Part shown: positions 45,400 through 55,903 of the stretch, one piece after another
Layout of the letters: each line of letters begins with the position of its first letter
Position numbering within the stretch: the first letter of the stretch is position 1
Assembly: GCF_000013045.1 (NCBI RefSeq)
Contig: NC_007677.1
Span: 1,178,001 to 1,242,000, forward strand
Direction of reading: 5' to 3'
Length of the DNA stretch: 64,000 bases
DNA from: Salinibacter ruber DSM 13855
GTDB taxonomy: Bacteria; Bacteroidota; Rhodothermia; Rhodothermales; Salinibacteraceae
Position numbers and translations under genes: made by a program
The notes under the pieces: model-generated
The model's database searches: none
Told to the model about the DNA's origin: nothing
The model's input: the letters and a program-made list of their open reading frames with translations, nothing else

Positions 45400-46083
45400 T
45401 TACTCCGACGTGCCAAACTCGAAGGTGAGAGTCGTCTGGCTGGCAACCGGCTGTCCGTTCTGTTGCGCGGGGCGGAAGCGCGACCGGCGGGCGGCAACGA
45501 GAGCGGCCTCCTCCAGGCCGTGGTCGAGGCGCGCGACGGGGCGAGCCCGTCCCTCGTCCGGGAGCCGCCACCGTTTGAGGACAGTTGCCCCCGTCACCCG
45601 TCCCGTCTCGGACACCTGCACGGCGACGCGAACCCGGGCCTGTACGCTCGCCTCGCGGGCAGCGGTCGGATAGTCGGGCTGTACGGCGCGGAACAGACGG
45701 GCGTTGGTGTCGGGCGTGCGGGCCGCACGGGGCGTGTCGGTCGTGCCGTCCCGCAACTGGTCGTCGTCCCCGGGGACGTCGACGGCCAGAGCGGACGTGC
45801 CGAACTCGATCTTGTCTTCGATCACGACGTTGTTGGGGACGACCTTGGGGGGCGCCGGGGCGGGTGGGGGCGGCGTCTGCTCGCGGGCCTGTGCCGTCGG
45901 CTGCACCTCGTTAATTTGGATGCGGTCCGCACTCCGCTCCCCAAACGGACCGTCTGGGGCCCGTGGGGACGGCGCCGGCCACCAGCGCACGAGCGCAACG
46001 CCGAGCGCCAGCACGACGGCCAGCGCCCCGAGAAGGCGGCGTCGGTACGCGTGGTCGGACCTGAAGGCAGCAGCTCGGCGCAT
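45400..46083 (-). CDS. TonB-family protein (energy transducer C-terminal domain)
   Basis: A 227-residue envelope protein. A single transmembrane helix (LLGALAVVLALGVALVRWW) lies near residues 17-36, followed by a Pro-rich linker (TPPPPAPAPPKVVPNN) and the TonB C-terminal domain (AVQPDYPTAAREASVQARVRVAVQVSETGRV, then ALVAARRSRFRPAQQNG). TonB proteins carry proton-motive energy to outer-membrane receptors. No exbB or exbD is adjacent, so it may be an accessory TonB. The ATG at 46083 is chosen; the frame is open to 46314 but overlaps the carA leader. Confidence 0.87.
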   Translation of the reverse strand: MRRAAAFRSDHAYRRRLLGALAVVLALGVALVRWWPAPSPRAPDGPFGERSADRIQINEVQPTAQAREQTPPPPAPAPPKVVPNNVVIEDKIEFGTSALAVDVPGDDDQLRDGTTDTPRAARTPDTNARLFRAVQPDYPTAAREASVQARVRVAVQVSETGRVTGATVLKRWRLPDEGRARPVARLDHGLEEAALVAARRSRFRPAQQNGQPVASQTTLTFEFGTSE

Positions 46084-46231
46084 CGAACGGACGGGCGGTC
46101 GGGGACAACATCGTATCTTTAAGAACGGGGCCCAACATCTGTTTCTGAGCGGGGGGCGGCCCCGGTTTGTGATGCAACCGTGAGGGGGCGTTTGAAAACC
46201 AGCGAAACGAGGCCGCAGTCCAGAAATCCGG

Positions 46232-46262
46232 TTGCGAAACTTTTCGGCCTGCTTGTACTTTG
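46232..46262 (+). promoter_or_regulatory. Candidate carA promoter (Bacteroidota type)
   Basis: TTG (46232-46234) and TACTTTG (46256-46262) are separated by 21 bp and resemble the Bacteroidota -33 TTTG / -7 TAnnTTTG pattern, although the -7 element is one base short. It is about 180 bp upstream of carA, so a long leader would be made. Confidence 0.4.
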
Positions 46263-46300
46263 ATCGGCAGGTTTTGCCAACGCCACCAATCCCAAGCGCC

Positions 46301-46363
46301 ATGTCTCCCGACATTCCCCCCGAACCCGGGCCCTGCTCATTGGCACCGACCCCGTTGGATTAG
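46301..46363 (+). CDS. Possible leader peptide upstream of carA
   Basis: A 20-codon open frame (ATG at 46301, TAG at 46361-46363) ending 9 bp before the terminator stem at 46373. The peptide starts MSPDIPPEPGP and is Pro-rich (seven Pro in 20). Its location in the leader just before a terminator is what a translation-coupled attenuator would need. Chance occurrence is possible and no ribosome-binding site is evident. Confidence 0.35.
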   Translation: MSPDIPPEPGPCSLAPTPLD

Positions 46364-46372
46364 TTCCTCTGC

Positions 46373-46397
46373 CCTCCCCATTTGGGGAGGTTTTTTT
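46373..46397 (+). terminator. Intrinsic terminator in the carA leader
   Basis: Stem CCTCCCC (46373-46379), loop ATTT, GGGGAGG (46384-46390) and seven T (46391-46397) on the plus strand, ending 46 bp before the carA ATG. The upstream neighbour is on the opposite strand and the previous plus-strand gene ended at 45386 beyond it. The terminator can therefore only act on the carA leader transcript, which points to attenuation. Confidence 0.85.
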
Positions 46398-46442
46398 ATG
46401 GCCCCTGGCGCCGCCGTTTGTCACTGACTCTCCTCCTGTCCC

Positions 46443-47603
46443 ATGACCCACGCATCCTCCTCCCCGACCCGCGATCCTGCCAAGCTCGTTCTGTCCGACG
46501 GCACCGTCGCCCGAGGCGTGGCACTTGGCCAGCGAGGGCTGACCGGCGGGGAGCTGTGCTTCAACACGAGCATGACCGGGTACCAAGAAATCATGACGGA
46601 TCCGTCGTACTACGGCCAGCTCATGATGATGACTCAGCCCCACATCGGCAACTACGGCGCCTCGGCCGAAGACATGGAGGCCGATACCCCGATGGTCGCG
46701 GGCTTCATCGTCCGCGATTACCCGCGCCGCCACGCCAACACCCAGGCCGACGAGACGCTCGAGGCGTTCATGCGGCGCCACGGCCTCGTGGGCATTGCGG
46801 GGGTGGACACCCGGGCCCTCGTGCGACACGTGCGGGACAAGGGCGTCATGAATGCCGTCATCTCGTCCGAGGCCCTGGAGGAGGAGACGCTCCTGCAGAA
46901 GGCGCGCGACTGGCCCAGCATGGCGGGCCGGAAGCTGGCCTCGGAGGTGAGCACCGATGGCCCGTACACGTTCTGCGAGGGCCCCGGGCCGCGGATTGCG
47001 GTGTACGACTTCGGGGTCAAGCAGAACATCCTGCGCTCGTTTCGCCGGCGGGGGTGTACGGTGAGGGTGGTGCCGGGCGACACGGACCTGAGCGAGGTCC
47101 GTGCCTGGGACCCCGACGGGCTCTTCTTCTCGAACGGCCCCGGCGACCCGCGTCCCATGTCCGACGCGATCGAGACGGTGGGCGAGGCCATCGACACGGG
47201 CCTCCCGATCTTCGGCATCTGCCTGGGGCACCAGCTGATGTCGCTGGCGGAAGGGATTGGGGTCTACAAGATGCATGTCGGCCACCGCGGGGCCAACCAT
47301 CCGGTGAAGAACCTTGACACCGGGCAGGTCGAGGTGACGACCCAGAACCACGGCTTCGCGGTCGATCCCGAGTCGATTGCGCCGGAAACCGCCCGCGTAA
47401 CGCACGTCAACCTGAACGACGACACGATCGAGGGGCTTGAGTTCAAGACGTTCGCCGGCATGTCGCTGCAGTACCACCCGGAGGCCTCCCCCGGCCCGCA
47501 CGACAGCCACTACCACTTCAACCGGTTCATGGAGCTGGTGGCGGAGGAGCGGGACGTGACGCTGCCGGCGGCCGCCACCGAGCCGGCGGTCGCGACGGCG
47601 TAG
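46443..47603 (+). CDS. carA: Carbamoyl-phosphate synthase small chain
   Basis: A 386-residue glutamine amidotransferase subunit feeding ammonia to CarB for pyrimidine and arginine synthesis. The N-terminal domain has LVLSDGTVARGVALG and CFNTSMTGYQEIMTDPSYYGQ. The class I amidotransferase triad lies in FGICLGHQLMSLAEG (Cys) and LQYHPEASPGPHDS (His, Glu). The leader with a terminator lies directly upstream and carB follows after 120 bp. Confidence 0.97.
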   Translation: MTHASSSPTRDPAKLVLSDGTVARGVALGQRGLTGGELCFNTSMTGYQEIMTDPSYYGQLMMMTQPHIGNYGASAEDMEADTPMVAGFIVRDYPRRHANTQADETLEAFMRRHGLVGIAGVDTRALVRHVRDKGVMNAVISSEALEEETLLQKARDWPSMAGRKLASEVSTDGPYTFCEGPGPRIAVYDFGVKQNILRSFRRRGCTVRVVPGDTDLSEVRAWDPDGLFFSNGPGDPRPMSDAIETVGEAIDTGLPIFGICLGHQLMSLAEGIGVYKMHVGHRGANHPVKNLDTGQVEVTTQNHGFAVDPESIAPETARVTHVNLNDDTIEGLEFKTFAGMSLQYHPEASPGPHDSHYHFNRFMELVAEERDVTLPAAATEPAVATA

Positions 47604-47723: not shown

Positions 47724-50552
47724 ATGCCCAAGCGCACCGACATCGAGACCATTCTCCTCATCGGGTCCGGCCCCATCGTGATCGGGCAGGCCTGCGAGTT
47801 TGACTACAGCGGCAGCCAGTCGGCCCGGGCCCTGATGGATGAGGGCTACCGGGTGGTTCTGGTGAACTCCAACCCGGCCACCATCATGACCGACCCGCTG
47901 ATGGCCGACGAGGTGTACCTCCGACCGCTCACGCCGTCGTCCATTGCGCAGATTGCCCGTGAGGAGGAGCCGGACGCCGTGCTGCCCACGATGGGCGGCC
48001 AAACCGGCCTCAACGTGGCGCAGGACCTGAAGAAAGACGGGTTCTGGGATGAAGAGGGCATCGATGTCATCGGCGTCGACATCGACACGGTCCAGATCAC
48101 CGAGGACCGTCAGGAATTCCGAACGCTGATGGACGACATCGGGCTCGACCAGTCCCGCAGCGACACGGCCAAGAGCCTGCTGGAGGCCAAAGAAATCACC
48201 CAGGAGCTGGGAGGGCTGCCGGTCGTTATCCGGCCGTCGTACACGCTTGGGGGCTCGGGGGGCGGCATCGTCTGGAAGGAGGACGAATTCGAGGAAATGG
48301 TCACCCGTGGCCTGGAGCTCTCCCCGGCCCACCAGGTGCTGATTGACGAGTGCCTGTTCGGGTGGAAGGAGTACGAACTGGAGCTGCTCCGCGACCCCAA
48401 CGACAACGTCATCATCATCGCCTCCATCGAGAACGTGACGCCGATGGGCGTGCACACCGGCGACTCGGTAACCGTCGCGCCGCAGCAGACGCTGACGGAC
48501 AAGCAGTTCCAGCGGATGCGCGACGCGGCGATCAAGGCGATGAACTCGATCGGCACCTTTGCGGGCGGGTGCAACATCCAGTTTGCCTTCGAGCCGGGGA
48601 CCGGGCGCATGATCGTAATCGAGATCAACCCGCGGGTGAGCCGCTCCTCGGCCCTCGCCTCCAAGGCGACCGGCTACCCCATCGCGAAGGTGGCCTCGAA
48701 GCTGGCGATCGGCTACACCCTCGACGAGCTGCCGAACGAGGTGACCGGCGATACGAGCGCCTGCTTCGAGCCGTCGCTCGACTACGTGGTCACCAAGATT
48801 CCGCGCTTCAACTTCGACAAGTTCGAGGGGGTCGACGAGGAGCTGACCACGCAGATGAAAGCGGTCGGCGAGGTCATGTCGATCGGGCGCACGTTCAACG
48901 AAAGCCTGCAGAAGGCCTGGCAGAGCCTCGAAATCGGGTACGCGGGGCTCGGGGCCGACCGCCCGGACGCCGACCGCGAGACGGTGCGCGAGCGGCTGAC
49001 GGCCCCGCGCTGGGACAACCTGCTGCACGTCCGCCACGCCTTCCGGTACGGGGCGAGCGTGGAGGAGGTACACGACATCACTCAGATCGACAAGTGGTTC
49101 CTCTACCAGATCAAGGACCTCGTCGCCCTTGAGGAGGCGGTCCGCTCCACCCCCCTCCGCGAGATGGACGCCCGCTTCCTCCGAGAGATCAAGCGCGCGG
49201 GCTTTTCCGACGAGCAGATTGCCTTCCTCGTCCCCGAGGACGTGACCGACCGCGAGGTGCGCGCCCACCGGACGGACGAGGACGTGACCCCGGCCTACCA
49301 GCTCGTCGACACCTGTGCGGGCGAGTTTCCGGCGGAGACGCCCTACTACTACTCCAGCTACGAGACCGTCAACGAGAGCACGGTCACGGACCGGCCGAAG
49401 GTGCTGATTCTCGGCTCCGGCCCCAACCGCATCGGGCAGGGCATCGAGTTCGACTACTGCTGCGTCCACGGCGTGAAGGCCGCCCAGGAGATGGGCTACG
49501 AGGCCCTCATGCTGAACTGCAACCCCGAAACGGTGTCCACGGACTTCGACGTGGCGGACAAGCTCTACTTCGAGCCGGTCTTCTGGGAGCGGGTGCAGGA
49601 CGTCATCGACCTGGAGCAGCCGGAGGGCGTCATCCTCCAGCTTGGCGGGCAGACGGCCATCAAGCTCGGCGAGCGGTTCGAGGAGGACGGCATCCAGGTC
49701 CTGGGAACCTCGTACTCGAAAATGGACCTCGTGGAGGACCGGGGCAAGTTCACGTCCATTCTGCAGAAGCTGGACATTCCGTTCCCCCCCTACGGCGTGG
49801 CCCATTCGGTGGAGGAGGCCCTCGAGACCGCCGGCCGTCTCGGGTATCCGACCCTGATCCGGCCCAGCTACGTGCTCGGAGGGGAGGGCATGCGCATCGC
49901 CATCAATGAGGACGAGGTGGCCGAGTACGTGGGCAACGTGCTGGAGACATATCCGGACAATGAGATCCTGCTCGACCGCTTCCTCGAAGACGCGGTCGAG
50001 CTGGACGTGGATGCCATCTGCGATGGCGATGAGGTGTGGATTGCGGGCATGATGCAGCACATCGAGCCGGCGGGGGTCCACTCCGGCGACTCGACCGCCG
50101 TCCTGCCGCCGTTTAGCCTCTCCGACGAGGTGCTCGATACCATTCGGGAGTACGTGCGGGCCCTCGCCTTCGAGCTGGACGTCCTCGGCCTCGTGAACGT
50201 GCAGCTCATCGTCAAGGACGGAACGGTGTACGTCATTGAGGCCAATCCGCGCGCCTCCCGCACGGTCCCCTTCATCGCCAAGGCGGCGGGCATTCCCATT
50301 CCCGCCATCGCCACGAAGGTCATGCTGGGCGAGACGCTCGAGACCTTCCGCGAGCGGGGCGACCTGCAGTCGGACCTGGAGGAGTACGCGATCAAGGAGC
50401 CGGTCTTCTCGTGGGACAAGTTCCCGGAGGTGCCGAAGGAGCTCGGGCCGGAGATGAAGTCGACCGGAGAGTCGATCGCGTTCGTGGAGTCCCTCGACGC
50501 CGAGCAGTTCGAACAGCCCTACGAAATGAAGGACCTATATTTGTCTCGGTAA
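47724..50552 (+). CDS. carB: Carbamoyl-phosphate synthase large chain, no MGS domain
   Basis: A 942-residue synthetase with the two ATP-grasp halves. The first has LLIGSGPIVIGQACEFDYSGSQ, IRPSYTLGGSGGGIVW and VIEINPRVSRSSALASKATGYPIAKVA. The second repeats LILGSGPNRIGQGIEFDYCCVH, LIRPSYVLGGEGM and VIEANPRASRTVPFIAKAAG. It ends at YEMKDLYLSR and lacks the roughly 130-residue C-terminal MGS-like regulatory domain found in E. coli CarB, where UMP and ornithine bind. Shorter CarB chains are, to my knowledge, common in Bacteroidota. Loss of allostery raises the weight of transcriptional control at the leader. Confidence 0.96.
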   Translation: MPKRTDIETILLIGSGPIVIGQACEFDYSGSQSARALMDEGYRVVLVNSNPATIMTDPLMADEVYLRPLTPSSIAQIAREEEPDAVLPTMGGQTGLNVAQDLKKDGFWDEEGIDVIGVDIDTVQITEDRQEFRTLMDDIGLDQSRSDTAKSLLEAKEITQELGGLPVVIRPSYTLGGSGGGIVWKEDEFEEMVTRGLELSPAHQVLIDECLFGWKEYELELLRDPNDNVIIIASIENVTPMGVHTGDSVTVAPQQTLTDKQFQRMRDAAIKAMNSIGTFAGGCNIQFAFEPGTGRMIVIEINPRVSRSSALASKATGYPIAKVASKLAIGYTLDELPNEVTGDTSACFEPSLDYVVTKIPRFNFDKFEGVDEELTTQMKAVGEVMSIGRTFNESLQKAWQSLEIGYAGLGADRPDADRETVRERLTAPRWDNLLHVRHAFRYGASVEEVHDITQIDKWFLYQIKDLVALEEAVRSTPLREMDARFLREIKRAGFSDEQIAFLVPEDVTDREVRAHRTDEDVTPAYQLVDTCAGEFPAETPYYYSSYETVNESTVTDRPKVLILGSGPNRIGQGIEFDYCCVHGVKAAQEMGYEALMLNCNPETVSTDFDVADKLYFEPVFWERVQDVIDLEQPEGVILQLGGQTAIKLGERFEEDGIQVLGTSYSKMDLVEDRGKFTSILQKLDIPFPPYGVAHSVEEALETAGRLGYPTLIRPSYVLGGEGMRIAINEDEVAEYVGNVLETYPDNEILLDRFLEDAVELDVDAICDGDEVWIAGMMQHIEPAGVHSGDSTAVLPPFSLSDEVLDTIREYVRALAFELDVLGLVNVQLIVKDGTVYVIEANPRASRTVPFIAKAAGIPIPAIATKVMLGETLETFRERGDLQSDLEEYAIKEPVFSWDKFPEVPKELGPEMKSTGESIAFVESLDAEQFEQPYEMKDLYLSR

Positions 50553-55869: not shown

Positions 55870-55903
55870 ATGCCCCTGAGCGTCCTGCTCAGGGGCATTT
55901 TTT
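55870..55903 (+). terminator. Rho-independent terminator of csp
   Basis: ATGCCCCTGAGC (55870-55881), loop GTCCT, GCTCAGGGGCAT (55887-55898): a perfect 12-bp stem followed by a run of six T. Confidence 0.95.

Follow-up and report, generated by a model that had tools for sequence, protein, structure and literature searches.

Attenuators of the trp/his amino-acid type combine a short leader ORF with a terminator, and the PyrR-dependent attenuators of Bacillus place a leader terminator before pyrimidine genes. To our knowledge, enterobacterial pyrimidine genes are the only described cases in which attenuation is coupled to translation with no antiterminator involved. Termination at E. coli pyrE is described as depending on the proximity of the rph stop codon to the attenuator, and the expression data of that study did not show the expected rise (PMC2784333). 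Distances for E. coli are given in a further study: a terminator located 5 bp after a stop codon terminated at less than 10%, and more than 27 nt of separation was required for full efficiency (PMC4824070). The same operon as that considered here, E. coli carAB, is controlled at initiation, through two promoters and reiterative transcription, and attenuation is stated to be uninvolved at P2 (PMC6245113). In Polynucleobacter a carA motif RNA, found only before carA, is an extended hairpin of betaproteobacteria and a possible riboswitch (PMC8632094). Literature searches on carA/carAB attenuation, Salinibacter, Rhodothermus and Balneola covered few subscription journals; among the matches listed, the leader treated here is undescribed.

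The carA leader of Salinibacter ruber

The window analysed is the whole 64,000-nt stretch (64 kb) of S. ruber DSM 13855. Its carA locus comprises the following features, the promoter elements resting on sequence resemblance.

46232-46234 (+): possible -33 element, TTG
46256..46262 (+): putative -7 promoter element, TACTTTG, about 180 nt 5' of carA
46269..46397 (+): predicted terminated leader RNA of about 129 nt, its 5' end deduced from the promoter position and the terminator
46301..46363 (+): putative leader ORF MSPDIPPEPGPCSLAPTPLD, ATG at 46301, 20 codons plus TAG
46373..46390 (+): terminator stem-loop, CCTCCCC-ATTT-GGGGAGG
46391..46397 (+): T7 tract of the carA terminator
46398..46442 (+): terminator-carA spacer of 45 nt, in which a promoter-like box was not found
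46443..47603 (+): carA, carbamoyl-phosphate synthase small subunit (Pfam PF00988, PF00117)
47724..50552 (+): carB, large subunit, 942 aa, lacking the C-terminal allosteric (MGS) domain (Pfam)
45400..46122 (-): divergent TonB_C-like gene, start uncertain (Pfam PF03544)

The original prediction of a 7-bp GC stem followed by seven T on the carA strand, preceded by a 20-codon frame ending 9 bp before the stem and by a gene on the other strand, was confirmed in each of these parts, the upstream gene being TonB_C-like by Pfam. The ORF stop thus lies 9 nt from the stem, which folded alone has an energy of -13.6 kcal/mol. Where a Bacteroidota-like promoter had been predicted, about 180 bp upstream of carA, the box is present, one base shorter than the Bacteroidota TAnnTTTG. 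Some relatives have TAnnTTTG-like boxes 5' of the stem, and the window box goes unscored under a stricter box rule.

Read from its sequence, this leader is probably a transcription attenuator of the translation-coupled kind. The earlier suggestion that carAB is attenuated is strongly supported by comparison, through the conservation of the terminator and the non-random placement of leader ORFs. The UTP-modulated rph-pyrE system of E. coli is alike in that a stop codon lies close to the stem, that ribosome position is said to decide termination and that the gene belongs to the pyrimidine pathway (PMC2784333). There, however, the ribosome is supplied by the upstream gene rph, whereas Salinibacter has a 20-codon leader ORF with its own putative promoter; the gene is pyrE, in another phylum, and for carA a response to UTP is a guess. 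In E. coli pyrBI the terminator lies inside the leader peptide gene, a layout that the Balneolaceae carA leaders share (PMC4824070). pyrBI differs in gene and phylum, and also from both carA layouts, since the ORFs of Balneolaceae extend to the carA start codon and the Salinibacter ORF stops before the stem. PyrR-like proteins, as in Bacillus, are also encoded in these genomes, but no PyrR RNA element or antiterminator was found at these leaders. Unlike attenuators of the trp/his type, the carA leaders have neither shared control codons nor a competing hairpin, and the stop lies within 12 nt of the stem. The Polynucleobacter motif is likewise a carA-only leader element, although a layout of leader ORF and terminator is not described in the part of that source available (PMC8632094). 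The layout resembles that of E. coli pyrE or pyrBI, but at carA and in another phylum.

Rarity and conservation of the terminator

Taken together, the two strands of the window contain three hairpins followed by 6 T or more, the carA terminator among them; the other two lie at 55871 (+) and 36927 (-), neither being assigned to a gene end. The same scan of 14 other stretches found three, one of which is the carA terminator of genome G010. The pattern CCTCCCC-N2-10-GGGGAGG-T5 occurs a single time in the 3.59-Mb genome, at the carA leader. When CCTTCC...GGRRGG-T6 was sought in 113 whole genomes of the order (Rhodothermales), it was present in 60 and at carA in 57, sites being matched to carA positions by eye; five sites lie away from carA, and the reversed pattern, used as a control, gave two matches.

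Under a relaxed rule, a hairpin and T-run lies at most 235 bp upstream in 105 of the 126 carA upstream regions of the class (Rhodothermia) and in 95 of 108 from the order, or 94 of 108 after discounting L056, whose terminator call was judged spurious. Family f12, 6/15 f7 upstreams, and L094 and L103 of f1 have no terminator. For Balneolaceae (f17), 53 upstreams were assembled, 12 from the 126-member class set and 41 more; a terminator with arms TCCGAC...GTCGGA was found by pattern in 52 and by eye in L232. The hairpin and T-run that the original prediction expected in related genomes are therefore present in all but 14 order upstreams and in 53/53 from Balneolaceae. With a pattern that occurs once in the window's genome and a terminator conserved across both the order and Balneolaceae, the carA hairpin is not a product of chance.

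In the window the gene upstream of the leader is divergent, so no co-directional gene ends there. The terminator, its conservation at carA, the lack of a co-directional upstream gene, and the leader ORFs with their ends were all read from sequence. Scanning of 27 loci for upstream genes found the stem in 26, and 15 divergent proteins were picked by choice. By eye the neighbour is divergent in 13 of the 15 chosen loci, and the proteins comprise 11 that are tonB-like, one ABC-type ATPase-like, one HAD-type hydrolase-like and two wrong-frame ORFs; Pfam was applied to the window's gene, the remaining identities being assigned by eye. Outside the class, a folding rule placed a hairpin and T-run before carA in 16/33 upstreams, and in 10 of these 16 the preceding gene is presumably rplQ, recognised by its tail. 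In these 10 of the 33 upstreams a co-directional gene ends just upstream of the carA terminator, and in members of f16, f18, f19 and f20 with a terminator another co-directional frame ends right before the stem (both by eye). An ordinary gene-end terminator suffices in those cases. Since the terminator elsewhere follows co-directional genes, its presence before carA may predate any role in attenuation.

Leader ORFs in the order

The start, frame and stop of the leader ORF are kept in L001-L004, that is in Salinibacter and close relatives; named relatives of the window's organism include Salinibacter altiplanensis and Salinivenus. Pairwise differences among these four ORFs number 13, 13 and 26 by codon position, 26/52 thus falling at third positions, with pairs that are not independent. 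The peptide is similar in L006 and partly so in L007, and L005 differs in frame. Conservation of peptide codons, which had been proposed as a check, holds for L001-L004, with their kept frame and third-position bias, but no control-codon run is shared across families. Because the bias is clear in L001-L004 only, and weak, mixed or absent in other groups, the claim rests on ORF position and not on peptide sequence. Peptides differ across the order; the position of the stop near the stem is non-random.

Counting ORFs of at least 10 codons with an ATG or GTG start, a stop falls at -12..+3 of the stem in 44/93 order leaders; dinucleotide shuffles gave 9.7 (sd 3.0), or 15.2 (sd 3.3) with the last 15 nt fixed. 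After removal of leaders at least 70% alike, 21 of the 57 nonredundant leaders have such an ORF (6.1 in shuffles, 8.3 with the last 15 nt fixed). None of 500 shuffles reached the count for either set. With a wider stop window of -30..+3 the count is 49/93, compared with 16/93 for reverse-complemented leaders and 22/92 for arbitrary upstream points. Under the rule used, 36/57 nonredundant leaders have no stop-before-stem ORF. ORFs with ATG alone, regardless of where they stop, are not in excess (47/93 vs 43.3 shuffled), and ORFs reading through the stem are rarer than in shuffles (46/93 vs 58.6). These tests left out L019 (taken as identical to L017), f12 and the class-level families; L095 and L096 repeat L035 and L043, and L100, L102, L179 and L218 were unused. 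Order ORFs that read through the stem and end at carA (24 of the 103 upstreams in which an ATG was located) were dropped as evidence, because open frames overlapping a start codon as ATGA arise often in GC-rich DNA.

Leader ORFs in Balneolaceae

In 42/51 Balneolaceae leaders a frame that begins with an ATG 29-59 nt 5' of the stem stays open across the hairpin and T-run, against 15.5 (sd 3.3) in shuffles; among nonredundant leaders the count is 23/26, against 7.8 (sd 2.3) with a maximum of 15 in 300 shuffles. Stop-before-stem ORFs are at chance here (6/51 vs 7.5 shuffled). The two groups therefore use different layouts. Left out were L239, which is too short, and L232, missed by the pattern. 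For 38 through-ORFs a carA ATG was found, and 31 of them end within -20..+25 nt of it; 23 end at most 4 nt away, seven as ATGA and the others either as TAATG or with a stop followed by 1-4 nt. In the other two frames, taken as a control, the first stop after the T-run lies at most 4 nt from the ATG in 6/66, five being ATGA. Four further through-ORFs had no carA ATG by the rule used. The stem lies between 73 and 328 nt from the CarA match, so that ORFs as different in length as about 32 and about 100 codons share one end point. This through-terminator layout matches that of pyrL-like leader genes.

In 13 leaders of one Balneolaceae subgroup a hairpin with compensatory changes precedes the terminator: 12 cells are changed on both sides (0/500 shuffles), in 5 pairs (9/500), the structure having been drawn from the same sequences that were tested. 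This covarying hairpin lies 30-90 nt before the terminator, 5' of the leader ORF, with a purine-rich loop (CAAAAATGGA in several), at L084, L174, L177, L178, L215, L217, L244, L246, L254, L257 and other f17 loci. RNAalifold on 20 Balneolaceae leaders predicted the terminator alone, the upstream hairpin being absent, and no Rfam family reached gathering in 8 Balneolaceae loci. The idea of a hairpin regulon was rejected: a model of the hairpin, searched with 150 first-look candidates scored per genome, matched once per genome, at carA, in 13/20 genomes, with no second site. Of these matches, 11/13 come from genomes that had contributed sequences to the model, the remaining pair scoring weakly (E 0.01-0.03); the seven genomes unmatched include the window's own.

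Mechanism and alternatives

From the layout we infer where transcription starts, that the ORF is translated, and that termination occurs and can be relieved. RNA polymerase would start about 105 nt before the hairpin, and a ribosome would translate the short leader ORF behind it. A ribosome following closely would sit on or next to the left arm, so that the hairpin could not fold and carAB would be transcribed; with the polymerase ahead of the ribosome, the hairpin would form and transcription would stop at the T-run. We would guess that the speed of the polymerase on a pyrimidine-rich leader reports CTP or UTP, with carAB rising when pyrimidines are short. The 9-nt gap between stop and stem in the window falls in the repressed range of the E. 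coli measurements (PMC4824070).

The leader from 46301 to 46372 is 0.42 C and 0.24 T. Pyrimidine content is higher in leaders than in far-upstream DNA in 8/9 order families (f3 being the exception and f2 barely so) and in Balneolaceae, a comparison of little weight, since most of the far-upstream DNA belongs to another gene. Balneolaceae have a T content of 0.344 in the last 45 nt before the stem compared with 0.286 upstream, and the order families are C-rich or neither. The conserved pyrimidine arm CCTTCCC is not accounted for by this reading.

In a PyrR attenuator, as a first alternative, PyrR with UMP or UTP would bind the leader and favour the terminator. This is very improbable here, even with the PyrR family model NF003549 over cut-off in 28/31 genomes and two copies in the window's genome; the name PyrR is itself uncertain, as the model also matches 12/14 control genomes, six of them over cut-off. 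Searching Rfam up to E=10 over 46100-46500 gave three weak matches, none of them PyrR. Genomes G010, G114 and G202 (the last 77% complete), without an over-cut-off match, keep the carA terminator (L025, L098 and L145). None of 16 pyrR upstream regions has a terminator within 250 nt (a single weak T4 match lies at -289, in L115), and a permissive Rfam search of ten pyrR loci gave nothing relevant. The order leaders also have no antiterminator or conserved upstream structure: in 93 of them the left arm pairs upstream with a partition-function value of 0.271 vs 0.297 in shuffles, so that the leader comparison advised for anti-terminator pairing came out at chance, and folding is no better than in shuffles (-19.0 vs -19.5 kcal/mol). 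The same pairing result, an antiterminator not found in 93 order leaders, tells against a classical arginine attenuator, in which a ribosome stalled at control codons would free the antiterminator. carAB does serve arginine, and some leader ORFs end Arg-rich (RPRRR in f10, RRFRGG in f2). The window peptide, however, has no Arg, and no run of Arg occurs in the f3 (MQEPPL) or f5b peptides; Arg control codons noticed in f2, f10 and f13 were dropped, being absent in L001-L004, f3 and f5b. The ORF stop lies at -12..+3 of the stem in 44/93 leaders, whereas in known amino-acid attenuators the separation exceeds 20 bp (PMC4824070), and arginine attenuation is accordingly quite improbable.

A riboswitch or protein-binding leader, its sensor differing between lineages, is also unlikely. 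The covarying hairpin before the terminator in 13 Balneolaceae leaders is in its favour, to be set against the RNAalifold prediction of the terminator alone for 20 such leaders, the lack of an Rfam family at gathering in eight Balneolaceae loci and the folding of order leaders no better than shuffles. The terminator might instead be unregulated, either closing a short RNA of its own or surviving from a former upstream gene, with the carA promoter downstream. The co-directional genes that precede the terminator in other Bacteroidota classes are as this would have it, as is the varying length of the carA spacer, but the neighbour is divergent in the order loci read, the stem ends as near as 27 nt to the CarA match (L069), and promoter-like boxes 3' of the stem are few. 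Balneolaceae leader ORFs abutting carA, moreover, make sense only on read-through transcripts, and a low probability is given to an unregulated terminator. With no PyrR element, no antiterminator and no shared control-codon run, and with the stop too near the stem, ribosome-polymerase coupling is the likeliest reading.

A wider scenario is offered tentatively, and is rather doubtful as a whole. Rhodothermia may have arrived, separately from enterobacteria, at a control of carA that senses pyrimidine nucleotides through a race of ribosome against RNA polymerase, in which the Rhodothermales ORF stops at the terminator foot (several families being C-rich, and CTP as well as UTP perhaps being read), the Balneolaceae ORF runs through into the carA start codon, and the whole replaces feedback control of a CarB without an allosteric domain. 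The presence of such a layout throughout a Bacteroidota-like class would point to more than one origin of the principle, and close coupling of ribosome and RNA polymerase in the Rhodothermia lineage would be implied if the reading is true. Leader ORF and terminator together look like an on/off valve for carbamoyl phosphate, dependent on the ribosome keeping pace with the polymerase, and could account for the control of carbamoyl phosphate synthesis in organisms whose enzyme has no allosteric domain.

The link to CarB is less specific than originally proposed, when attenuation was said to fit the loss of the allosteric domain. No MGS domain is among the 11 Pfam families listed for the window CarB. 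The CarB of L126-L129 share its C-terminal tail (a sequence tail, Pfam having been run on the window CarB only). Among these four genomes, G077 (f12) and G089 (f7) lack a carA terminator. Since the same CarB form occurs in both without a terminator, the link to attenuation is weak and not specific.

Further observations at carA and pyrR loci

Two PyrR-like paralogues over cut-off lie at G000:C1:1682576-1683118 and G000:C1:3331715-3332200. Around the -33 region of the window, GCGAAACTTTTCGG at 46234-46247 is a possible operator, of which CGAAAC is kept in close relatives. A full TAnnTTTG lies at -29, -30, -37, -41 and -55 of the stem in 5/9 f7 leaders, leaving little or no room for an ORF; in L070, L076, L160, L163 and L172 the terminator, of the same hairpin type, thus follows the box after 29-55 nt of very short leader. 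Family f12 (L033, L039, L040, L044, L056, L059), which has no credible terminator, carries a conserved GTGAAG.T.TTGAGACCGG.CG before carA, a stretch that could encode V-K-V-L-R-P-G-A.
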